This document shows, piece by piece, positions 4,602-20,392 of a stretch of DNA of 42,678 nt; the stretch's first letter is position 1, and each line of letters opens with the position of its first letter. This DNA is from Oscillospiraceae bacterium (GTDB lineage: Bacteria > Bacillota > Clostridia > UBA1381 > UBA9506), in the NCBI GenBank assembly GCA_015068615.1, contig SVKE01000001.1, positions 1 through 42,678 on the forward strand. The letters are read 5' to 3'. A program made the position numbers and the translations under genes. Under the pieces are notes generated by a model, which saw only the letters and a list, made by a program, of their open reading frames with translations, was not told where the DNA came from and did not search any database.

Positions 4602-4787
4602 GAAATTTATAAAAAGATTTCAGACGGCTGTAAGGTGTATTTTAAAAATGGGGGCTCGATTATCGCGCGGTTTTAAGGCATAGAGCCGCTTCTTCGCATT
4701 TTTTATGACATAAAAAGCATAGAAACGCCCAGAAAAATGACGAATATCCGGAGACAGGATTTGCAGCCGTAATAGATGGGCATACTA

Positions 4788-4816
4788 TTGACAGGGCTGG
4801 CAGACGATGATACAAT
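4788..4816 (+). promoter_or_regulatory. Sigma-A promoter of cysK with extended -10
   Basis: TTGACA (4788-4793), 17-nt spacer, TACAAT (4811-4816) preceded by TGA, an extended -10. I see no T-box or S-box motif between it and the start codon 44 nt downstream. The rest of the 4442-4787 gap shows no gene. Confidence 0.8.
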
Positions 4817-4860
4817 ACATATGATGAAATTGTGACAGTACAAAAAAGGAAGGTATTTAT

Positions 4861-5793
4861 ATGAGCTTGTATACATCTGCCGACCAGCTGATTGGCAAAA
4901 CACCTCTTTTGGAGCTTGCGCAGCTTGAAAAGACCTTGCAGCTTAAAGCGCGGGTGCTGGCAAAGCTGGAATATTATAACCCCGCCGGATCGGTTAAGGA
5001 CCGCGTCGCAAGGGCCATGATTGATGAGGCAGAAGCGTCGGGCAAGCTCAAGCCCGGCTCTGTTATCATTGAGCCTACCTCCGGCAACACCGGCATTGGC
5101 CTTGCCTCCGTTGCTGCGGCAAGAGGCTACCGCATCATTATTGTCATGCCGGAAACGATGTCCGTTGAGCGCAGATTGCTGATGAAGGCCTACGGTGCCG
5201 AGCTTGTTTTAACAGAGGGAGCAAAGGGCATGAAGGGTGCCATCGAAAAGGCGGAGGCGCTTGCAGCCGGCATATCGGACAGCTTTGTTCCGGGGCAGTT
5301 TACAAATCCCGCCAATCCGCAAATCCACCGGCTTACAACAGGGCCGGAAATCTATGAGGATACAAACGGCGAGGTGGATATATTTGTGGCTGGTGTCGGC
5401 ACCGGCGGAACCATTACGGGTGTTGGCGAATATTTAAAATCGAAAAAACCAAACGTTAAAATTGTGGCCGTTGAGCCGGAGAGCTCTGCCGTATTATCCA
5501 CAGGGCTGGCCGGTTCCCACGGCATCCAGGGCATTGGCGCGGGCTTTGTGCCCGAGGTGCTGAATACAAAAATATATGATGAAGTTATAGCGGTGTCGGA
5601 TGCAGACGCCTTTCAAACAGGCCGGATGCTTGGAAAAACCGAAGGTATTTTAGTTGGCATTTCCTCCGGTGCAGCGGCTTTTGCGGCTTTGCAGCTTGCC
5701 AAACGCCCTGAAAACGAAGGGAAGAACATCGTGGTGTTACTGCCCGATACGGGAGACAGATATCTCACCACGCCTATGTTTGCAGAAGAATAA
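4861..5793 (+). CDS. cysK: Cysteine synthase A (O-acetylserine sulfhydrylase)
   Basis: A 310-residue cytosolic PLP enzyme making L-cysteine from O-acetyl-L-serine and sulfide. The PLP lysine is K46 in NPAGSVKDR. The phosphate and substrate loops are TSGNTGIG at 73-80, [11 protein letters not shown] near 178 and [11 protein letters not shown] near 266. Length and motif order match CysK throughout. AGGAAGG ends 7 nt before the ATG. No cysE or serine acetyltransferase is adjacent. It is monocistronic, with a strong promoter and a hairpin terminator shared with the convergent topB. CysM-type or cystathionine synthase paralogues are less likely given the compact length. Confidence 0.93.
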
Positions 5794-5815
5794 AACCGGA
5801 GATATCATTAAAGAT

Positions 5816-5846
5816 GAGGGGCTGTAGCTTTTTGCTACAGCCCCTC
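5816..5846. terminator. Shared cysK/topB terminator, hairpin family copy 2
   Basis: GAGGGGCTGTAGC, TTTTT loop, GCTACAGCCCCTC, a 13-bp perfect stem directly abutting the topB stop codon. It sits between convergent genes and can stop transcription from both sides. Confidence 0.8.
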
Positions 5847-8018
5847 TTAGTCCTCTTTCTTTGCTGCCATGGCCTTCTCAAAGGCTAACTGCATAGCGGT
5901 TTTTTCTTCGGTCTGTTCCTTTTTCTGCTGTTTTAAATAGTTCCGGACAAAATGCTTCGATGCACCTTCGCCGGCACTCTCTCTGCGCTTTTGATAGGCA
6001 GCCAGTTTTTCCCGGTATCCGCAGGGGCAAATGTATGTCCGCTTGTCACCCTCGCCGAACAGCTCCATGGTTTTGTGACAGTTCGGGCAACGGACGCCGG
6101 TTTTTAGGCTGACGTTTTGCCGATAACTGCATTCTCTGTCCTGACAGACCAGCATTTTCCCTTTTTTTCCGTTGACAGAAAGCAGCATCTTGCCGCAGAC
6201 AGGGCAGGGAGTTGTTGTTATGTTATCGTGCACATAGCGTTTTTCTTCGGTGGCAACGGTTTTTACCAAGGACTGTGTGTAGCCGCGGATTTCGTCAATA
6301 AAGTCTTTTTTGCCAGCCTTTCCCTTGCTGATGGCCTCTAGGGTCTGTTCCCACTTGGCGGTGAGCAGTGGCTCCTTTAAATCGGCAGGCACCAGGTTAA
6401 TCAGCTGGATGCCCTTAGAGGTGGGGACAATGCTCTTGCCGGATTTTTCGATATAAAAGGATGAAAACAATTTTTCAATAATATCCGCACGGGTGGCAGG
6501 AGTCCCGAGACCGCTGCCAATGAATTCCCGCATTTTCTTATCTTCGATAAAGGCACCGGGATTTTCCATGGCAGAGAGCAGTGTGGCCTCTGTGTAGCGG
6601 GCGGGCGGTGTGGTTTTGCCGCTTTTGATGAGGACGCTTTCGCAGGGAAAGGCTGCACCCTCTGCAAGCTTTGGCAGCAGCTGCTCTTCCTCTTCCTCCT
6701 CGTCGGCCACGTCATAAACCGTTTTCCAGCCTCTCTCGAGCACCTCGCGGCCGGTTGCATAAAAGCTGTGGCCACCGGCGGAAAACTCTGCCTTAATTGA
6801 GCAGTACTGATAGGCATCAAAGAAGCAGGTTAAAAAGCGCAGCACCACCAGCCGATACATTTTCCGCTCGTTATCTGATAAATCCAGATAATTCACGCCC
6901 TGCTCCGTGGGGATGATGGCGTGGTGGTCACTGACCTTGGCATTATTGATACAGCTTTTGCTGATGCTGCGTTTTTCTTTTAAAATCCTCGAGGCAACCG
7001 GAGTAAAGTCACCGAAGGAGACTGCACGCACACGCTCTGTCAGCGTGGGCACGATATCCTCTGTCAGGTGGCGTGAATCTGTCCGCGGGTAGGTCAGTGC
7101 CTTATGCCGCTCATAGAGAGACTGCATGATGGAGAGGGTCTCCTTTGGAGAAAAGCCATAGAGCTTGTTGGCGTCTCGCTGCAGCTCCGTCAGGTCATAC
7201 AAATTTGGCGGTGGGGTCTTTTTATTGGTCTTGGTAAGACTTGTCAAGCAAAAATCCTTACCCTTTACGGCTGTGGCAATGGCCTCTGCCGTTTCGCGGT
7301 CAGAAATGGCAGAGTGACCGTTTTTGTCACGATATGTGACCGTGAAGGAGCCCAAATCTGCCTTTACGTTATAATAATCCTTAGGAACAAATTTGCGAAT
7401 GGCATTTTCCCGCTCTACAATGATAGCCAGAGTCGGCGTTTGCACGCGACCGGCCGTCAGCCGTGCGTTATAGCGACAGGTCAGGGCACGTGTCACGTTA
7501 AGCCCCACCAGCCAATCTGCCTCGGCGCGGGCTTGGGCAGATTGATACAGGTTTTCATATTCCTTGCCGTCCTTTAAGGCGGCAAAGCCCTCGCGGATAG
7601 CCTTGTCAGTCTGCGAGGAAATCCAAAGTCGGCGAATGGGTTTTTTAAAGCCTGCCTTCTGGATAATCCAGCGTGCCACAAGCTCGCCCTCACGCCCTGC
7701 ATCGGTGGCAATGACCAAGGAGCTGATTTCCTCGCTTTTTAGCAGTCCCCGCACCACGCTGTATTGCTTCTTTGTGGCGGGAATCACCTCCAGCGCCATC
7801 TTATCCGGCAGCATGGGCAAATCCTCCATGCGCCAGCTTTTATATTGCTTGCCGTAGTGCTCCGGGTCGGCAAGCGTTACCAGATGCCCCAGCGCCCAGG
7901 TGACAATGTATTTGTCTCCGGTGATGTAACCGTTAGCCGGTTTGCGACAGCCCAGCACGCGGGCCAGCTCCTTGCCCACGGAGGGTTTTTCCGCCAGTAC
8001 CAATATTTTTGACATCAT
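5847..8018 (-). CDS. topB: DNA topoisomerase III (type IA)
   Basis: A 723-residue type IA topoisomerase that relaxes negative supercoils and decatenates DNA by single-strand passage. The Toprim domain starts at VLAEKPSVGKELA, with the metal motif TDAGREGE at 105-112. The catalytic tyrosine is Y310 in LTYPRTDSR. The C-terminus carries two zinc ribbons: CPVCGK...CQDREC and CPNCHK...CPCGY. Clostridial genomes often carry several TopB copies, some on mobile elements; nothing around this one suggests a mobile element. AGGAG precedes the first of two adjacent ATGs. A promoter lies at 8053-8081. Confidence 0.92.
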   Translation of the reverse strand: MMSKILVLAEKPSVGKELARVLGCRKPANGYITGDKYIVTWALGHLVTLADPEHYGKQYKSWRMEDLPMLPDKMALEVIPATKKQYSVVRGLLKSEEISSLVIATDAGREGELVARWIIQKAGFKKPIRRLWISSQTDKAIREGFAALKDGKEYENLYQSAQARAEADWLVGLNVTRALTCRYNARLTAGRVQTPTLAIIVERENAIRKFVPKDYYNVKADLGSFTVTYRDKNGHSAISDRETAEAIATAVKGKDFCLTSLTKTNKKTPPPNLYDLTELQRDANKLYGFSPKETLSIMQSLYERHKALTYPRTDSRHLTEDIVPTLTERVRAVSFGDFTPVASRILKEKRSISKSCINNAKVSDHHAIIPTEQGVNYLDLSDNERKMYRLVVLRFLTCFFDAYQYCSIKAEFSAGGHSFYATGREVLERGWKTVYDVADEEEEEEQLLPKLAEGAAFPCESVLIKSGKTTPPARYTEATLLSAMENPGAFIEDKKMREFIGSGLGTPATRADIIEKLFSSFYIEKSGKSIVPTSKGIQLINLVPADLKEPLLTAKWEQTLEAISKGKAGKKDFIDEIRGYTQSLVKTVATEEKRYVHDNITTTPCPVCGKMLLSVNGKKGKMLVCQDRECSYRQNVSLKTGVRCPNCHKTMELFGEGDKRTYICPCGYREKLAAYQKRRESAGEGASKHFVRNYLKQQKKEQTEEKTAMQLAFEKAMAAKKED

Positions 8019-11108: not shown

Positions 11109-13772
11109 ATGAAAAATGTACACGTGATACCTCACAGTCATTGGGACAGAGAGTGGTATATGCCATTTGATTATCACAGAGCATATCTGGTAAAATTAAT
11201 CGATGAGTGTATGAATTTATTTGAAAATGATAAAGCATATAAGGCATTTCACTTAGATGGTCACACCGCCCTGGTTGAGGACTATCTGGAAATAAAGCCT
11301 CAAAACGAGCAGAAAATTAAAGAGTACATAAAAAATGAAAGGTTTGCCGTTGGTCCCTGGTACATCTTGCAGGACGAATTCCTGACAAGTGCGGAAGCCA
11401 ACATCAGAAATCTATTGGTGGGCATGGATTTAGCCAGAACACTGGGCAAGGTCACAAAGGTGGGGTATTTCCCTGATTCCTTTGGTAACGCAGGGCAAAT
11501 GCCGCAGATTTTATCTCAGGCAGGCATGAAAGCTATACTTTTTGGCAGAGGTGTAAAATCTGTAGGTATGGATAACGCAGTAATTGAGGATGAAGCCTAT
11601 GCGTCAAAATATTCAGAAATTTATTGGGCATCGCCCGATGGCACCTGCCTTCCCTCTGTTACACTTCCCAACTGGTATTGTAATGGTATGGAAATACCTA
11701 AGGATGCCGATAGAGATTATTGGGATACAACCCTAAAAAATGTAGAAAAATTTGCATCAACCGACGAGCTTTTGTTGCTCAACGGCTGTGACCACCAGCC
11801 TGTGCAGATAGATTTATCAGAGGCTTTAGCCAATGCAAGAGAAAAATATCCTGCATACAACTTTATCCATTCCGATATGGAAAGCTATATGGATGCTGTT
11901 ATCAAGAATCTTCCCGCTGATGTAACAACCATAACAGGCGAACTGATAAGCCAGGACACAAATGGTTGGTTCACTTTAGTCAATACTTGTTCTGCCCACG
12001 TTGATCTAAAGGTAATGAACAGAAAATGCGAAATGCTTTTGGAGGGAGTGGCCGAACCGCTATCCGTTATGACACGGGAAATGGGGAAAGAGTATCCCCA
12101 TGATATGCTTTTGTATTCGTGGAAAACATTGATGAAAAACCACCCTCACGACAGCATCTGTGCTTGCAGCTGTGATGCAGTAGCCGAGGAAATGAGAACA
12201 AGGTTCAAAAAGGCGCAGTACTCAGCAGAAGTAATCATACATGATAACCTTGAATATATAAAACAACACACTGATATATCGAAATTTTCAGATTGTGATG
12301 CAGTATTTATGGTTGTCAATACAATGTCAAAAGGAAGGTGCGGTTTAATTTCGACAGATGTTGATTTAAAACGTGTATATAAACCGCAAAATGCACCGCA
12401 GACCTTTAAAGAATTAAATGACACCATCTACAAGGGCGCATACGAATTGGTCGATGAAGATGGAAACAGATACGCCTGTGAGGTAGCTAACCAAAGAGCA
12501 CAGTTTGACTATGATTTACCAAAGAGAAGCTTCAGGCAGCGATATATCGCACAGCGTGTAACGGTTTCTTTTGAGGCAGAGGATGTGCCGGCATTGAGCT
12601 GTAAGCTCTATGGCTTGAGAAAAACAAGCAAAGCAGAAAGCACAGCCGTGGCAAACAACACCTTGGAAAACAAGTACCTGAAGGCTGTTATACAGGCAGA
12701 TGGCACAATAGATTTGCTTGATAAAACCACAAACAAGGTATTTCAAGGACTTATGCGCTTTGAAGACACCGGTGATATTGGCTCTGAATATACGTATGTT
12801 CCTGCAAACGCAGAACCTATATTGTCAGGCAATAGGAATGCAGAGATTGAACTGATAAGGCAAAATGATTTTGTGACGGAATATAAGGTGACTGTCACAA
12901 TGAATATTCCAAAGTCGCAGGATAGTAGTGCTGACGAGGAAAGAAATACATATGTTGCACTTTGTGACAGAGTTGGCGGAAGAAGTGATGAATCAGTAGC
13001 TTTAAACATCACATCATATTTGACATTAACTAAAAACAGCAGGCGACTAGATGTAAAGACAGTTGTTGACAATAACGCACGCGACCACCGCCTGCGAGTG
13101 CTGTTCCCAACGGGATTAAATGCAACTGCGCATAAAGCGGAAACTATCTTTGAGGCACCTGTCCGTAATAATGCTCACAAAGAGACGTGGACCTACCCAT
13201 CAGGTTGTGAGCACCAGCAGGGCTTTGTATGCATGAGCGATGAGGAAGCGGGTATTGCCGTAGCCAATATTGGCCTTTATGAATACGAAACAATGGGTAA
13301 CACCATTGCAGTAACACTTCTTCGCGCAGTAGGAGAGATGGGCGACTGGGGAGTGTTCCCCACCGAGCTTTCGCAGGTGCAAAAGACCTTGGAGCTGGAG
13401 TATTCAATTATGCCCTATGGCGATGAGGCTGACATATATACTGATCTTTCTGCGTTCCAATATCCAATGCTTACAACACAGATTTTTGAGTCAAACGAAA
13501 ATAAATTAAATAAGGAAACCCTGGTGTGGAGCGGAGACTATTTAAAAGCCTTTGCATTTAAAAACAAGATGAATGGGAAAGACATTATAATGCGCTGGGC
13601 AAACTATTCAAATGATGAACAGATACTCACAATTAAGAAAACCAAGGTAATAGATAATCTGTATAGAAGCAATGTAATAGAGGAAAAAGGAGAAATGCTT
13701 TTTGAAGAGGGTGGCGAGTGGAAAATCTCCGTTAAGCCTTACGAAATTATTACAGTTGGAGTGGTGAAATAA
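11109..13772 (+). CDS. Glycoside hydrolase family 38 alpha-mannosidase
   Basis: An 887-residue cytosolic (no signal peptide) GH38 enzyme cleaving alpha-mannosides with retention of configuration. Expected zinc ligands are H11 and D13 in HSHWDREW. D89 in GPWYILQDE is the predicted nucleophile and zinc ligand, D123 in YFPDSFGNAGQ the likely acid/base region, and the late zinc histidine lies in NHPHDSICAC. The C-terminal half is the usual beta-rich GH38 region. A GGGGGAAG site precedes the ATG. Its stop TAA shares a base with the next ATG, so translation is probably coupled with the GH92 gene. Base composition is AT-richer than topB or htpG. The linkage cleaved is not determinable. Confidence 0.9.
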   Translation: MKNVHVIPHSHWDREWYMPFDYHRAYLVKLIDECMNLFENDKAYKAFHLDGHTALVEDYLEIKPQNEQKIKEYIKNERFAVGPWYILQDEFLTSAEANIRNLLVGMDLARTLGKVTKVGYFPDSFGNAGQMPQILSQAGMKAILFGRGVKSVGMDNAVIEDEAYASKYSEIYWASPDGTCLPSVTLPNWYCNGMEIPKDADRDYWDTTLKNVEKFASTDELLLLNGCDHQPVQIDLSEALANAREKYPAYNFIHSDMESYMDAVIKNLPADVTTITGELISQDTNGWFTLVNTCSAHVDLKVMNRKCEMLLEGVAEPLSVMTREMGKEYPHDMLLYSWKTLMKNHPHDSICACSCDAVAEEMRTRFKKAQYSAEVIIHDNLEYIKQHTDISKFSDCDAVFMVVNTMSKGRCGLISTDVDLKRVYKPQNAPQTFKELNDTIYKGAYELVDEDGNRYACEVANQRAQFDYDLPKRSFRQRYIAQRVTVSFEAEDVPALSCKLYGLRKTSKAESTAVANNTLENKYLKAVIQADGTIDLLDKTTNKVFQGLMRFEDTGDIGSEYTYVPANAEPILSGNRNAEIELIRQNDFVTEYKVTVTMNIPKSQDSSADEERNTYVALCDRVGGRSDESVALNITSYLTLTKNSRRLDVKTVVDNNARDHRLRVLFPTGLNATAHKAETIFEAPVRNNAHKETWTYPSGCEHQQGFVCMSDEEAGIAVANIGLYEYETMGNTIAVTLLRAVGEMGDWGVFPTELSQVQKTLELEYSIMPYGDEADIYTDLSAFQYPMLTTQIFESNENKLNKETLVWSGDYLKAFAFKNKMNGKDIIMRWANYSNDEQILTIKKTKVIDNLYRSNVIEEKGEMLFEEGGEWKISVKPYEIITVGVVK

Positions 13773-15748
13773 TGAAGCTGGTTGATTTGGTAAATATCAA
13801 GCAAGGTACAGACTCACGTCAAAGATACTCAAATGGCAACACCTTACCATTGGTTCAGCAGCCTTATGGTTTTGCAAGCTTTGCTCCGCAGACGGATTCG
13901 AGTCGCGGAAACTGGTTTTTTAACCCCGAGGACTGTAGCTTTGAGGGCATACGAATCACACGTCAGCCAAGTCCGTGGATAGGCGAGCAGGGGGCAGTAT
14001 GTATAATGCCGCAATTCGATATTCCCTGTGAGCATCCCAGCATGCGTTGGTCAGGGATAAGACCCCGTGATGCAGTTCTTATGCCTCACTATATGAAATA
14101 TGATTTGTTGAGGTCGCGCGCAACAATCGAGCTTACTCCTACAAACAGCGGTGCTTGTATAAGAGTGAATTTTAAGGATTCTAGCAGAAATAATTACATT
14201 TCTGTCTTGCCTGTTGACACGCCTTGTGAGTATGAAGTGGATGGAAATATTGTGTCGGGCTATACAGAGTGTGTATCCAAGCAAAAGGAAAGAAAAAACG
14301 CAAAGGTATACTTCGTTCTTGAATTTTGCGACGGTCATATTTCTAATGTATTGTTAAGAGAAGGTTCGGCTCACATAAAGGCAGAGGTGCAGAATATAGA
14401 ATTTAAGCTCTCCACATCCCTGATAAGTGTGGCCCAGGCGAAGCAAAATCTAAGACGTGAGCATACTTATGGCTGCTTTGATGATTTAAAAGAGAAAAAC
14501 GAAAAGAACTGGGAAGAGTATCTTTCACGTGTTATCATCAAAACTGACGACGAGGATACAATGCGTACATTCTACTCTTGTATGTACAGGTTTTTGTTGT
14601 ATCCGCACAAGGCGTATGAGCTTGATGAGCATGATAATCCCATACACTATTCACCAGGTAAGGATTGTGTGGTAAGCGGTTATCATTACACAGACAACGG
14701 CTTTTGGGATACATACAGAACATTTTATTCTTTGCTTGCGCTAGTGGACTTTGATGAGTACAGAAAAATATTGGACAGCTTCATAACCGATTATGAAAAT
14801 GACGGATGGCTTCCCAGATGGACGGCCACAGAGCCAAAAAACTGTATGCCGTCCACTATGATAGATGCAGTACTTGCTGATGGTGCTAAATACAGAGCCA
14901 TTCAAGGAGAAAGACTAGAAACAGCACTTGAAGCGATGATTAAACACGCAAATGTACCATCTGAATACAAAGAGTTTGGCAGAACGGGTTGTGTAGAGTA
15001 TACACGCCTTGGCTATGTGCCTAATGATGAGTATAGAGAAAGCGTAAATCTTACACTCGATGCCGCCTATGGTGATTGGTGTATAGCGGAAATTGCTAAA
15101 ATTCTTGGAAAAGAAGATATAGAGGCAGAATATCGCAAACGCTCAAAGAGTTATAAAAATATATTTGATAAAGAAACAGGATTTATGAGAAGTCGTAATA
15201 AGGCGGGGGAATTTCGCGCGGGCTTTTCCCCTGAAAGCTGGGGACTTGACTACACAGAGGCAAGCGCATATCAAACAAGCTTTGCTGTTCAGCATGATCT
15301 TGAGGGATTGGCCGAGCTCCATGGCGGACGAGAAAAGCTTGTGAAAAAGCTTGATGAGTTTTTTGATACACCGCCCGTGTATCTTCCTGGTGGCTATGGC
15401 AACGAAATCCACGAAATGACTGAAATGGCGGCATACGACTTTGGGCAGTGTGCAATTTCCAATCAGCCAAGCTTCCATATTCCGTTCATTTATGCATACT
15501 TTGGTGAAAATGAAAAGTGTGAACATTGGGTAGAAAGACTTTGCCGGGAGGGATTTTCTTATCGTGATGATGGTTTTCCCGGGGATGAGGACAATGGCAC
15601 GATGGCAGCGTTTTATATATTTTGCTGTATGGGCCTTTATCCCCTTACACCGGGCAAGGCAGAATTTGTTCGTTTCCGTGGGTTGGCAGATGATGTAAAA
15701 ATTAACGGATTACCTCTTGAGGCAGCCATAGAAAAGGCGGTAAAATAA
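13772..15748 (+). CDS. Glycoside hydrolase family 92 alpha-mannosidase
   Basis: A 658-residue GH92-type enzyme; this family comprises calcium-dependent inverting exo-alpha-mannosidases. Recognisable segments are GNTLPLVQQPYGFASFAPQT near residue 23 (family pattern GN-P), GIRITRQPSPWIGEQG, NGFWDTYRTFYSLLAL near 310, GGYGNEIHEMTEMA, the NQPSFHIPFIYAYFG segment and GDEDNGTMAAFYIFCCMG near 617. Many family members are secreted and around 750 residues. This one lacks a signal peptide and is shorter, so it likely works in the cytosol on imported oligosaccharides with the coupled GH38 gene. No transporter is adjacent. Bond specificity cannot be assigned. Confidence 0.88.
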   Translation: MKLVDLVNIKQGTDSRQRYSNGNTLPLVQQPYGFASFAPQTDSSRGNWFFNPEDCSFEGIRITRQPSPWIGEQGAVCIMPQFDIPCEHPSMRWSGIRPRDAVLMPHYMKYDLLRSRATIELTPTNSGACIRVNFKDSSRNNYISVLPVDTPCEYEVDGNIVSGYTECVSKQKERKNAKVYFVLEFCDGHISNVLLREGSAHIKAEVQNIEFKLSTSLISVAQAKQNLRREHTYGCFDDLKEKNEKNWEEYLSRVIIKTDDEDTMRTFYSCMYRFLLYPHKAYELDEHDNPIHYSPGKDCVVSGYHYTDNGFWDTYRTFYSLLALVDFDEYRKILDSFITDYENDGWLPRWTATEPKNCMPSTMIDAVLADGAKYRAIQGERLETALEAMIKHANVPSEYKEFGRTGCVEYTRLGYVPNDEYRESVNLTLDAAYGDWCIAEIAKILGKEDIEAEYRKRSKSYKNIFDKETGFMRSRNKAGEFRAGFSPESWGLDYTEASAYQTSFAVQHDLEGLAELHGGREKLVKKLDEFFDTPPVYLPGGYGNEIHEMTEMAAYDFGQCAISNQPSFHIPFIYAYFGENEKCEHWVERLCREGFSYRDDGFPGDEDNGTMAAFYIFCCMGLYPLTPGKAEFVRFRGLADDVKINGLPLEAAIEKAVK

Positions 15749-16127: not shown

Positions 16128-17138
16128 TCAGTTGTCATAATATTCCTCTACTGCGCCAAAGAACGCTCTTATATTATCCCATGGAGAAAGAGGTGGAATG
16201 TCACAACCTGAGGAAATGACAAAATTGGGGCTGGAACAGCATTTTTTCATAACGTCCAGCGTTGCATTTCTGATTGATTCAGGGGTTCCGCCGAAGAATT
16301 CTGCCGACGGACTGATATTTCCCATAACAACCGTGTCAGAAGGGATTTTGGAGAGCATTTCTGCCATGTCTATTGAGTTTCCGAAATGGTATGCCGCAGA
16401 GCCTGTGGCAAGGATTGAGTCTATCATGGCAATTGTGTTGTCTCCGCAGTTGTGGTATATAACAATAAAGTTGTCGTCCTGAACGCTGTCAACAATTTTC
16501 TTCACATACGGACTTGAAAACTCGCTTTCAAGTGCAGGAGACAAAAGTCCCGCAACAGGCTCGGCAAGCATAATTCCGTTTGCACCTGCAGCCTTGTAAG
16601 CCTTGCAGTATTCAATAATAAACGCGGTGGCCTTTTCAAGAACGGTGTGAACCATTTCGGGCTCATCGTAGCAATCCATCATTACTTCGGTTACATCAAG
16701 AAGCCTTGCCGCCAGTGAAAACGGACCTATTGCCCCGGCGAATACCGGTCTGTCGGTTATTTCTTCAACGGCTTTTTTTATAGCGTCTATATAGAGGCCT
16801 GTGCGGCAGGCGCCTATGGGAGGAATTTCAAGAGCCTCCGCTTCATCCAGGTCGTTTACAACCCGGCCTACTACGGTAGGCACCTCGCCGTCGAACACCT
16901 TTATCTGCGAGCCGAAGCATTCTGCCTCAACAGAAAGGTCCATCAGGCTGACAGATGCCGCAGCATCTGTGATGTCGGCAATCTTCTTCATGCCCTCTGC
17001 CTGAAACTCGCTGCTTGAAATAAGCTCCTCTACGGTAATTCCCAGAAGCTGTATAGATGGGAATGAAAGTATTGGGAGCGCCTTTTTTGTTTCGGCATTT
17101 TTCAGCTGCTCCAGCCATTTGCGCATATTCCGTTTCAT
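16128..17138 (-). CDS. UroD-family corrinoid methyltransferase (MtaA/MtbA-like) with zinc motif
   Basis: A 336-residue protein of the uroporphyrinogen-decarboxylase fold, but of the methyltransferase branch. H229-x-C231 in YHNCGDN and C312 in SSGCDIP reproduce the His-x-Cys...Cys zinc site that MtaA/MtbA-type enzymes use to activate a thiol or similar methyl acceptor. It probably moves a methyl group to or from the corrinoid protein encoded just upstream. The gene is last in a minus-strand operon, 25 nt after the fusion gene. The ATG at 17136-17138 follows AAAGGA; longer in-frame readings lack homology. HemE is unlikely because no other haem genes are present and HemE has no such zinc motif. 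Substrate unknown. Confidence 0.8.
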   Translation of the reverse strand: MKRNMRKWLEQLKNAETKKALPILSFPSIQLLGITVEELISSSEFQAEGMKKIADITDAAASVSLMDLSVEAECFGSQIKVFDGEVPTVVGRVVNDLDEAEALEIPPIGACRTGLYIDAIKKAVEEITDRPVFAGAIGPFSLAARLLDVTEVMMDCYDEPEMVHTVLEKATAFIIEYCKAYKAAGANGIMLAEPVAGLLSPALESEFSSPYVKKIVDSVQDDNFIVIYHNCGDNTIAMIDSILATGSAAYHFGNSIDMAEMLSKIPSDTVVMGNISPSAEFFGGTPESIRNATLDVMKKCCSSPNFVISSGCDIPPLSPWDNIRAFFGAVEEYYDN

Positions 17139-17163: not shown

Positions 17164-18771
17164 TTAGTTCTGTGAACAGAGCTCAACCGCAACGTCTGCG
17201 GCGCTTGCTGCATCGAAGGTGTAGCGGTCTGCACCTATCTTTTGGCAGAATTCTTCTGTTATGGGAGCACCGCCTATCATAATTTTCACCTTGTCTCTAA
17301 TGCCTGCTTCGGTCGCTTTCTTTACAACGTCTTCCATAACGCCCATCGTTGTGGTGAGGAGTGCGGAGCAGCAGATAACCTGGCAGTCTTCCTCAATTGC
17401 TGTCTTAATAAAGGTTTCGGGCGCTACGTCTGTTCCCAGGTCAATAACCTCAAGACCCTTTCCTTCCATCATCATTTTTACAAGGTTCTTTCCGATGTCG
17501 TGAAGGTCGCCCTGAACAGTACCGATACATACTTTTCCAGCGGTCTCAATGCCCTCTGACGCAAGCAGAGGCTTTAAGAGCTGTGCGCCCATACTCATGG
17601 CTCTTGCTGCAAGAAGAACCTCGGGCACGTAGATTTCGTTGTTTTTGAACTTTTCTCCGATTACGCTCATGCCAGCAAGAAGTCCTTCGTTCAAAATCTG
17701 TTCTGCCGGAATTTTCTCGTCAATGGCATTCTGCACAAGCTCTTTTACGATTTTTGCCTTTCCAATCTGTAGGTTTTCCGAAATTTCTTTAAGAATAGTC
17801 ATAATTTCCTTTCCTTTCAAATAATTTATATTTTCATTTTTGGGTTCGGGTGGGATACCGTTTTCTCTTTCGCTCGTTCTGTACTGATATGGGGTCATGA
17901 GCGTATGAGATTTGAATAACTGATAGAACGACGGCACGTCCTTAAGTCCGCATTCGTGAACTATCTGTTCGATGGTAAGAGAGGTGTCTCTCAGAAGTCT
18001 GCATGCCTGCTTTAGCCTCACACTGCGCACATAATCCGAAAAATGCTCGCCTGTGACCTTTTTGAAAATCCTGCTCAAATATGATTTGCTGATATAGAGG
18101 TCAGAAGCAATTTTTTCAAGAGAGATATCCTTGCAACGGTAATTGTCCATTGCTATTCTCATTGCCTGAAAAACCATAATTCTGTCCTTTGACCTTACCG
18201 ATTCGGCAACGATTGTGGTCTTACGGTCGTTTGCATATCTCTTTAAGAGGATGAGAAGCGTGGTTAAATGTGCTCTAACGGCGCTTTCCCACTCGTCTTG
18301 TTTTTTCTCTATTTCGCTTCCGATGCTTAAGCAGATTCGCTTTACTTCCTCCAGCGTATATTGTGTCAGCATTACGTAGGCGATAAGCGCATTGTCCTTA
18401 AAAATGCCGTGGCAGTATCTTTGACTGTCAGGGGAGATGATGTCCGCATCAAGTAGAGCCGAGGGGTCGAAAAGTATATTGCAAACAGTAGGGCGTTCGT
18501 TTTCACTTTTTGCAAAAAATGAGTGTGGTACGCCCGCGTTAACGATATACACGTCGCCGGTATTGCACTCGGACTGTTCGTTTAAGCAGCTATGTATTCC
18601 GCTTCCGGCGGTCACTATGCTTATTTCCACAAATTCGTGAAAATGTAGTTGCGACAGAGCAAACTCAGGTTCGTAAATGCTTGACGTTGTATCAATGTTA
18701 TGGTAGACAGGAGCGCCTTTTGGCCGGTTATTTTTCTCCAAAAGACGGGAATTGTCCTCGTATTCAAACAT
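17164..18771 (-). CDS. AraC-family regulator fused to a corrinoid (B12-binding) methyl-carrier protein
   Basis: A single 535-residue frame with two complete proteins in series. Residues about 20-130 form a cupin-like sensor (LHFHEFVEISIV, GDVYIVNAGVPHSF). Residues about 200-298 are a double helix-turn-helix AraC domain (ISLEKIASDLYISKSYLSRIFKKV, ending TPYQYR, quoted in parts). A 25-residue linker follows. From M324 there is a complete corrinoid protein: methyltransferase cap (about 324-410) and a B12 domain with D422-L-H424-D-I-G427, whose His ligates cobalt. The ATG of M324 (17800-17802) has its own AGGAAAGGA Shine-Dalgarno, so a free 212-residue carrier may also be made. It sits between two UroD-type methyltransferase genes in one operon. 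A sequencing error removing a stop is possible but would need a frame-preserving change. Confidence 0.85.
   Translation of the reverse strand: MFEYEDNSRLLEKNNRPKGAPVYHNIDTTSSIYEPEFALSQLHFHEFVEISIVTAGSGIHSCLNEQSECNTGDVYIVNAGVPHSFFAKSENERPTVCNILFDPSALLDADIISPDSQRYCHGIFKDNALIAYVMLTQYTLEEVKRICLSIGSEIEKKQDEWESAVRAHLTTLLILLKRYANDRKTTIVAESVRSKDRIMVFQAMRIAMDNYRCKDISLEKIASDLYISKSYLSRIFKKVTGEHFSDYVRSVRLKQACRLLRDTSLTIEQIVHECGLKDVPSFYQLFKSHTLMTPYQYRTSERENGIPPEPKNENINYLKGKEIMTILKEISENLQIGKAKIVKELVQNAIDEKIPAEQILNEGLLAGMSVIGEKFKNNEIYVPEVLLAARAMSMGAQLLKPLLASEGIETAGKVCIGTVQGDLHDIGKNLVKMMMEGKGLEVIDLGTDVAPETFIKTAIEEDCQVICCSALLTTTMGVMEDVVKKATEAGIRDKVKIMIGGAPITEEFCQKIGADRYTFDAASAADVAVELCSQN
17803..17817 (-). promoter_or_regulatory. 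Internal ribosome-binding site for a free corrinoid protein
   Basis: On the minus strand AAAGGAAAGG precedes an in-frame ATG (17800-17802) with 5 nt between the last AGG and the codon. It lies inside the linker of the AraC-corrinoid frame, exactly where stand-alone corrinoid proteins begin. Confidence 0.6.
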
Positions 18772-18791: not shown

Positions 18792-19850
18792 TTACTGGTA
18801 CTTTCGCATCTGACGCCAGATGTCGAGTATCATCTCATATCTTTCGGCCGGCATTCCCTTAAACGGCGTGTTGCTAGTTGCGAAAATATATCCGCCATTT
18901 TCTGCTCCATAGGTCAGACAGTATTTCGCACTGTCAATTACCTCCTGGTCTGTACCTGTCTGTAAAGCGGCACAGTGTACGTTCCCGCAAAGACAAACCT
19001 TGTCACCATAGAGCCTCTTGACTTCTCTTATATCAACTCCTGCCATGGGGTCGAGCGAGTGAAGTGCGTGAGGGCCTGCCTGGACCAGACTCTCTATGAT
19101 GGGCATGATATCGCCGTCTGTATGTTTAATCACATACAGTCCGGCCTCTCTGCCTGCCTTGCATATGTCCGCAAGGTATGGGGTGATGAATTCGTCAAAC
19201 ATGGCAGGTGACAAAAAGGGACCTGAATTGTAACAGTAGTCGCTGCACAACATCACTACGTCAAGCCCTGCTTCCTTCTGACGTTTATTCTTTTCAATTG
19301 CACTTTCGCACATTGCCTTTGCTTCAGCATGAAGCTCCTCCGGTTCGTCGGAAATGCGGTATACAAAATCATACATTTCCGAGCCTGGCGGAATTGCAAA
19401 GGTTCCATCTCCGTGAGTGCAGAAAAGGCGGGTGTCTCCAAAATGCTCGCGCAAACGTTTGCGGAAGGCCTTGGTAACAGGGTGGTCCGGTTCCTCCCAG
19501 TAGGGAGAAAAGACTGAGATTATAGCGTGGTCAAGTCCCGGTTTTGCATCCTTTTGTTCGTCGCCGGAAATTGCCGCTCCGCCTATGTCGTATGCAGTGC
19601 CTGCGCCAAACACTCTTGCATATTTGTCGGCAAGGTCACATGCTGCCTTTTCCACTTCAAGAGGAGAGAGCTTGCAAAAATTTTCGGGATTGAAGATAGG
19701 GTCTTCAAGCGGATATCCGTACAACTCCTCTGATATTTGTACATGTAATTCAAAAGTCGGAATTTCGTCTGGCTTTCCAAGATTGAGTGCGCATATAGCA
19801 CGTTTTGCAGGTGTCCAAATTGTTGACATGAAACAATCACAACCCTTCAT
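18792..19850 (-). CDS. UroD-family protein lacking the zinc-thiol motif, probable methyltransferase component
   Basis: A 352-residue protein of the uroporphyrinogen-decarboxylase/methyltransferase superfamily. Family landmarks are RAICALNLGKPDEIPTFEL near the start, GPFLSPAMFDEFITPY (about 217), YVIKHTDGDI (about 245) and CGNVHC (about 293). Where the partner at 16128 has His-x-Cys...Cys, this protein has HTDG and no matching cysteine, so it probably acts on a different, non-thiol methyl donor or acceptor. It is first in the operon, 20 nt before the AraC-corrinoid gene. The start is uncertain: ATG 19850 has a weak AGGA 13 nt away, while ATG 19829 has AAGGG 17 nt away. It may be the substrate-specific methyltransferase, as some O-demethylase components are UroD-like; this is inference. 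Confidence 0.7.
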   Translation of the reverse strand: MKGCDCFMSTIWTPAKRAICALNLGKPDEIPTFELHVQISEELYGYPLEDPIFNPENFCKLSPLEVEKAACDLADKYARVFGAGTAYDIGGAAISGDEQKDAKPGLDHAIISVFSPYWEEPDHPVTKAFRKRLREHFGDTRLFCTHGDGTFAIPPGSEMYDFVYRISDEPEELHAEAKAMCESAIEKNKRQKEAGLDVVMLCSDYCYNSGPFLSPAMFDEFITPYLADICKAGREAGLYVIKHTDGDIMPIIESLVQAGPHALHSLDPMAGVDIREVKRLYGDKVCLCGNVHCAALQTGTDQEVIDSAKYCLTYGAENGGYIFATSNTPFKGMPAERYEMILDIWRQMRKYQ

Positions 19851-19883
19851 TATTTACATATTTGTCCTAAATGTTCTGGAATG

Positions 19884-19923
19884 GTGAAAGCATGTGATAC
19901 ATCAAATGCGTATTTGCTTTCAC
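19884..19923. repeat. Inverted repeat in the leader of the methyltransferase operon
   Basis: GTGAAAGCA and TGCTTTCAC (9 bp) flank a 22-nt loop, 34 nt upstream of the first UroD-type gene. It could be an operator for the AraC-type regulator or an mRNA hairpin. Confidence 0.4.
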
Positions 19924-19960
19924 ATTCCGTTGCTAAATCCCGTTTGCGGTTTATTTTATC

Positions 19961-20097
19961 AAAAAGGCCTGCTATAACTCAGCCGCAGACAGGTTGGCAG
20001 TCATCAATTTTTTAATATAACCCTGCAGAGCCTTTCTATACCGGTTATGCTACTTACAGCCTTTGTGAAAGTCGCATCCACCTATGACATTATTTTA
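19961..20097 (-). ncRNA. Candidate structured leader or small RNA upstream of the methyltransferase operon
   Basis: On the minus strand a TTTCAT-17-TAAAAT promoter-like pair (-10 at 20097-20092) is followed by about 110 nt without an open frame. This ends in a terminator-like hairpin GTCTGC, 12-nt loop, GCAGGC, then CTTTTTG (19990-19961). The coding start of the operon lies 111 nt further on. That order (promoter, folded RNA, terminator, gene) is what a riboswitch or attenuator would give. I find no cobalamin B12 box and do not recognise a known class. Stem and promoter are only moderately convincing. Confidence 0.25.
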
Positions 20098-20311
20098 GCA
20101 TATTTTTTTCAGAAATGAAATATGGTTTAATTTCTTTTGTGCAATTTGACGGTAAACAAAACCATAGACTTTGTGCCGGTGCTTGCGTACCTATTGATTG
20201 TGATGAAACAGATTATGCAACAAATCCTCTCTGGCGCCTAAAGCTTCCCTGTAAATCTTATGAAGGCAGCCATTTGTATTTAAATTAGGGCAATCTTTTT
20301 TATAAACAGCC

Positions 20312-20340
20312 TTGAAAAATATAATGTCCTATGGTACAAT
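20312..20340 (+). promoter_or_regulatory. Promoter of the second SLH gene
   Basis: TTGAAA (20312-20317), 17-nt spacer, TACAAT (20335-20340) with TGG before the -10 box. The start codon is 53 nt downstream. Confidence 0.7.
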
Positions 20341-20392
20341 AATAAGGTCAATTTAACGATGCCTTTAGGCATAAAAAATAGGAGTGAAAAAA

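Follow-up and report, generated by a model that had tools for sequence, protein, structure and literature searches.

An AraC-family regulator and a corrinoid methyl carrier joined in one reading frame across uncultured gut Clostridia, with a conserved putative start for a free carrier

Why would a transcriptional regulator and a corrinoid methyl carrier be encoded in one reading frame, and does such a gene make one protein or two? The question is raised by a stretch of 42,678 nucleotides (hereafter the window; contig SVKE01000001.1 of the Oscillospiraceae bacterium assembly GCA_015068615.1), on whose minus strand an ORF of 535 codons runs from an ATG at 18771 to 17164 without an internal stop, its start preceded by the Shine-Dalgarno (SD) sequence AAGGATG (duplex energy -7.7 kcal/mol). 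The encoded protein comprises, all on the minus strand, an AraC_binding/cupin domain (PF02311, E = 3.6e-10; residues 42-109, positions 18445-18648), an HTH_18 AraC DNA-binding domain (PF12833, E = 1.4e-20; residues 222-299, 17875-18108), a linker (residues 300-323, 17803-17874) and a 212-residue corrinoid carrier half (17164-17802), MtgC/MtbC/MttC-like by Pfam and NCBIfam comparison, with a B12-binding_2 domain (residues 327-399) and a B12-binding domain (residues 413-522). All four Pfam domains exceed their gathering cut-offs, and together with the ORF they confirm the reading of the first-pass annotation, a complete cupin-AraC regulator joined to a complete corrinoid protein.

With its C-terminal HTH_18 and N-terminal ligand-binding domain, the regulator half belongs to the AraC/XylS family. 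The other half belongs with the methyltransferase corrinoid carriers by its two B12 domains, by a DxHxxG corrinoid-binding motif (DLHDIG, residues 422-427, 17491-17508, minus strand) followed by SxL and GG, and by a fold matching 7xcn, 3ezx and 4jgi. Its closest solved relatives are 1y80, 7xcn and 3ezx by sequence and 7xcn by fold; Foldseek ranked methyltransferase corrinoid proteins first, followed by MetH, ToxT-type AraC proteins and CarH. Its scores do not reach the NCBIfam cut-offs for MtgC, MtbC and pyl_corrinoid; with the two MtgC models (NF047996/NF047995) they are 205 bits where 370 are required and 173 where 310 are. In the AlphaFold2 model both halves fold well (mean pLDDT 85), with uncertain mutual placement (pTM 0.53), and the stretch overlapping the linker (model residues 292-305) has low confidence. 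Among 26 aligned regulator halves (window 17857-18771, minus strand), the cysteine of FCYGVF is invariant, that of PCxxGD nearly invariant and CG fully invariant; these conserved cysteines could be candidate ligand or metal sites.

Could the single frame be an artefact of assembly or sequencing, in which two separate genes lost a stop or their frame in the window's metagenome-assembled genome (MAG)? The linker does resemble an intergenic region with a ribosome-binding site (RBS), and many alternative linker frames contain stops (45 of 76). However, 43 genomes, the window's included, carry the same open fusion in a total of 46 full-length genes, almost all of them from MAGs of different species and from more than 40 independent assemblies, which rules the artefact out and leaves it next to no probability. 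The first-pass annotation had proposed looking for this architecture elsewhere and asking whether homologous loci all encode two separate proteins; they do not, and the fusion recurs as a single ORF. A scan of GTDB-species genomes gave 41 further loci (L020-L060) with one fused ORF each, at 30-50% identity to the window gene in the regulator half and 67-82% in the carrier half. Extra fused genes lie in G421 (two, L126 and L127) and, as second genes, in G486 (L123) and G489 (L124); a copy in G163 is cut by a contig end, and L016 and L036 are one contig of one genome. No in-frame stop occurs in 38 non-redundant linkers of 10-25 codons, which differ in length by whole codons only and cannot be aligned across species; with shuffled linker bases, the log10 probability that all are open is about -21, a naive figure that ignores relatedness. 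A tree of carrier halves does not group the fused genes together: it has 15 label changes, of which starred branches force 5, and carriers have therefore probably been split, fused or transferred more than once. Judged from these genomes, the regulator-carrier fusion occurs across many uncultured gut Clostridia.

Residue 324 is an internal ATG (17800-17802, minus strand), the putative start of a free carrier of 212 residues and 22.7 kDa (computed mass; 59.8 kDa for the fusion). It is preceded by an internal SD, AAAGGAAAGG (17808-17817, minus strand), whose position is conserved in the single-copy homologues. Both had been noticed in the linker at first pass and are present, the SD being moderate in strength: its duplex (-4.6 kcal/mol) is weaker than that of the gene's own start and lies at the weak end among homologues, with L045 and L057 weaker still. 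Over 36 genes the internal SD energy averages -7.2; the same measure taken at 569 interior in-frame ATGs elsewhere gives -2.5 (p = 4e-20). When the peptides were recoded synonymously, the average was -5.4 (sd of the mean 0.38, minimum over 200 runs -6.4), and none of the 200 was as low as the observed value. The junction peptide reads K-G-E-x-x-M in most genes because the DNA is AAAGGAGAA-N6-ATG; other SD frames give other peptides (NKEKKIM, QKESIM, TEEKRM) at similar spacing of the RNA motif. SD cores thus occur in all three codon phases, so that it is the RNA that is conserved, not the peptide. None of the 33 genomes that lack a further carrier of this type has lost the internal ATG; in some of them the SD is weak. 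The pattern indicates that internal ATG and SD are under selective maintenance.

What happens to this start when a genome has another source of carrier? A whole-genome search of 41 homologue genomes, many of them incomplete MAGs in which a free carrier might go unnoticed, found no other carrier of this type in 32, MetH-sized ORFs aside; the window genome has a single other match, in an 834-residue frame. In these genomes, then, carrier supply must fall to the fused gene. Eight clusters (L028, L029, L032, L041, L047, L055, L056 and L123) contain in addition a free carrier gene that has an RBS of its own. Six of them have lost the internal ATG, replaced by ACG, TCA, AAT, CTG, ACC and ATA; L028 keeps the ATG and has lost the SD, and L029 alone keeps both. 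Of 45 genes, the 8 with a free carrier in the cluster keep the ATG in 2 cases, one of them lacking the SD, and the 37 others in 35 (Fisher p = 9e-5, uncorrected for relatedness). On the regulator tree, free carriers require 7 changes; five independent pairs fall on starred branches, with 2-4 in the expected direction and 0 in the opposite one, few enough that the sign test gives p of at least 0.125. Internal starts are kept in L039 and L042 though a free carrier lies elsewhere in the genome, and are absent from L124 and L126, which have no free carrier in the cluster.

These data bear on whether the full-length fusion might be the sole product, serving as carrier and regulator in a trigger-enzyme arrangement, with the internal ATG and SD as a remnant of a separate carrier gene. 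The low-confidence linker and the loosely placed halves would let an attached domain act as carrier, and the SD of the window is only moderate. Yet a remnant should decay at such divergence, whereas the ATG persists in all 33 genomes that lack another carrier; the SD spacing is held across different codon phases, and the start decays only in free-carrier lineages or in the divergent L124 and L126 copies. We regard a sole product as quite improbable. A conserved internal RBS and start that become dispensable when a free copy exists are the mark of a dual-product gene, and the gene very probably yields two proteins. The earlier suggestion that both a fusion and a free carrier could be made finds strong backing in the conserved start and in its loss beside a free carrier gene; the two products themselves are what we infer from this.

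Lineages with two carrier genes also inform on the fused domain. In each of the seven clusters lacking the internal start or its SD, similarity to 17 single-copy carriers is lower for the fused carrier than for its free sibling in 16-17 of the 17 cases; in L029, which kept the start, the fused carrier does not diverge faster than its free sibling. All seven copies retain the B12 motif (DLHDIG; DMHDIG in L123), SxL, GG and most cap residues, and DxHxxG is likewise kept in the displayed fused homologues. Residues altered in the start-less copies are G353, E373, E379, P383, E384 and G407. For the L028/L032 pair, where dN/dS was computable (most diverged pairs being beyond its reach), it is about 0.11 for the fused domain versus 0.035 for the free siblings. 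In the carrier tree, fused and free copies are sisters or form one small clade in L028/L032, L056 and L123, with longer fused than free branches, consistent with duplication followed by specialisation of the carrier copies in these lineages. That the roles were divided repeatedly points to a gene with two functions, a free carrier from the internal start and a full-length protein that would still need the corrinoid. Since the relieved carrier domain keeps its corrinoid site, a role in the regulator is the best explanation; the B12 motif and purifying selection persisting in relieved copies argue that binding of the corrinoid is important for the regulator. Folding or another role instead of sensing could also cause this constraint.

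The same copies weigh on a reading in which the fusion is an expression device only: the intergenic stop was lost, synthesis became coupled, the cupin senses a small molecule and the B12 domain has no regulatory part. The AraC half does contain a full cupin that could sense a substrate, and an unfused regulator orthologue beside a UroD gene in G078 implies that the regulator can work without a carrier domain. But lineages with a free carrier kept the fused domain and its B12 motif while losing the internal start, dN/dS of the fused domain is about 0.1 in the pair measured, and none of the 38 non-redundant linkers holds a stop; we consider a mere expression device unlikely. In G078 (L102/L128, 7081-8004, minus strand) this orthologue is an ORF of 307-309 residues with 47% identity to the window's regulator, a UroD-type gene follows directly, and the locus has no carrier.

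The surroundings of the fused gene are those of a methyl-transfer pathway. As anticipated from the sequence at first pass, UroD-type methyltransferases adjoin it, one on each side: upstream U1 (18792-19850, minus strand, 352 residues; PF01208, E = 3.2e-23), 20 nt away, and downstream the MtaA/CmuA-like U2 (16128-17138, minus strand, likely start ATG 17138), the intergenic gaps around the fused gene being about 20-25 nt. The zinc-site motif of U1 is HTD (HTDG) with the matching Cys absent, O-demethylase-like, and that of U2 is His-Cys-Cys (YHNCG ... SSGCDIP). A His-Cys-Cys motif marks S/Se-type UroD enzymes and the Cys-less type O-demethylases (PMC10418091), so an O-methyl donor and a thiol or selenol acceptor are plausible. 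Among homologous clusters, a U2-type methyltransferase occurs in 31 loci (family clustering), DUF2284 in 16 loci and a RACo-type activase gene in 30 out of 51 loci. The components of a corrinoid methyltransferase cluster, UroD-type methyltransferases, carrier and RACo, are present in the window genome as well, the last on contig C40. There (L133, 5254-8624, annotated by similarity to homologous clusters) RACo, a second U2-type UroD and a DUF2284-like gene stand together with no carrier, so that these C40 enzymes, too, seem to rely on the fused gene. The Type 1 mlp clusters of Kountz and Balskus (PMC10418091) similarly combine several UroD-type methyltransferases, a corrinoid protein and a RACo/Ram activase, with a His-Cys-Cys zinc site as in U2; they differ in that their main text describes neither an AraC nor a regulator-corrinoid protein fusion, and in the O-type zinc motif of U1 here.

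Rfam found no cobalamin riboswitch in the window or in 7 loci scanned; the window matched only two tRNAs, and L050 a Gut-1 RNA. The region upstream of U1 (19851-20383) is a first candidate target promoter. When the upstream regions of five Lachnospiraceae loci were aligned in search of an operator, a weak common block appeared in L020, L023 and L024: TATGGTTNTGTTTCC ... CCATATT (TATGGTT...CCATATT). It contains an inverted TATGG/CCATA pair and is a candidate operator. The window also encodes GH38 and GH92 family genes of alpha-mannosidase type (11109-15748, plus strand), which are convergent with the methyltransferase operon.

How might the two products work together? Initiation at the ATG at 17802 would give the free 22.7-kDa corrinoid carrier, shuttling methyl groups between the surrounding UroD-type methyltransferases, and initiation at 18771 the 59.8-kDa AraC-family regulator, with the carrier domain as its C-terminal sensory domain. 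The full-length protein would then tune its own operon by the state of that domain, corrinoid-loaded or empty, methylated or not, while the cupin may sense a second, small-molecule signal. Corrinoid binding by the full-length protein, state-dependent DNA binding and its own operon as target are all predictions from sequence. A one-component regulator reading the corrinoid or methylation state of its own pathway carrier is the most likely role, held with fair confidence, and the B12 domain is probably the sensory part of the full-length protein. More tentative is the proposal that the signal is the methyl state, not corrinoid supply. It is similarly doubtful that the methyltransferases methylate the cobalt of the full-length protein, with CH3-Co(III) versus Co(I)/Co(II), cap-on versus cap-off, switching the AraC half while the same gene provides the free carrier. 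The original idea of a regulator sensing cobalamin or methyl state gains indirect support from a B12 motif retained under constraint, from which we infer the sensing itself.

Proteins that take a methyl group or substrate of their pathway and double as regulators are established in Ada, with an AraC HTH and a methyl-acceptor domain, and in the trigger enzyme PutA; the same working principle is proposed for the fused protein. It differs from Ada in that the methyl would sit reversibly on cobalt, in Ada irreversibly on cysteine, and in sharing no carrier domain: Pfam found no Ada methyl-acceptor domain in the fused protein. Corrinoid carriers are also joined to methyltransferases in CmuA and MtsD/F/H; in the corrinoid-carrier fusions we know of, the partner is an enzyme, not a DNA-binding regulator. 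A carrier fused to a partner is common to both, and L126 (G421, 4686-7373, minus strand) unites AraC-cupin regulator, corrinoid carrier and UroD methyltransferase in one 895-codon ORF; an internal start before the carrier is absent, and ahead of the UroD part an SD-like AGGGAAGG precedes ATG codons. This triple fusion shows, at the level of sequence, the fusion trend taken further. MtgC, MtbC, MttC and MtmC share with the C-terminal 212 residues the domains, motif and fold and a methyltransferase operon; here the carrier is translationally fused to an AraC regulator. To our knowledge EutR has no canonical B12-binding (PF02607/PF02310) module. EutR, an AraC/XylS regulator requiring adenosylcobalamin, is alike in an AraC-family activity that depends on B12 form and pathway substrate (PMC5821096), and differs in its single product and different pathway.

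CarH/LitR proteins are likewise one-component regulators in which a B12-binding_2 plus B12-binding module is joined to a DNA-binding domain, and their B12 half is structurally similar (5c8d and 8jbs are among the Foldseek matches). They differ in carrying a MerR HTH, where here an AraC HTH ends a cupin-AraC half, and here the B12 domain is of the carrier type, nearest MttC and relatives and set inside a methyltransferase operon. Light-responsive B12 domains bear an AdoCbl signature, GxxW ... EH, in the helical bundle (PMC11796333). The fused protein has no Pfam match to a MerR domain, and its carrier half contains no tryptophan, so the GxxW light signature is absent; we rejected CarH-like light sensing on these grounds, and the initial description of a sensor unlike CarH holds.

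Bacteria hold dozens of corrinoid methyltransferase systems. Their regulation is 'largely unexplored' according to a 2026 paper on one acetogen (PMC13222342). B12-domain regulators, AdoCbl-requiring AraC proteins, carrier-methyltransferase fusions and two-in-one genes are already known; for an AraC-corrinoid methyl carrier fusion we found no description in the open-access literature. If the sensing is true, a regulator that is also the carrier would be a direct control mechanism for such systems, and the lineages that split the roles into two genes are a natural experiment that tells which residues the regulator needs. If the methyl state is the signal, this would be a reversible, B12-based counterpart of Ada and a B12 sensor class distinct from light-sensing CarH; it could help to interpret C1 metabolism in the gut and serve as a genetically encoded sensor of methyl-corrinoid.

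A related arrangement occurs in L017 (702-2505) and L085 (4361-6164), where a single stop codon parts a different AraC protein (390-codon ORF) from the free carrier that immediately follows it in frame, possibly a precursor state or a parallel near-fusion.
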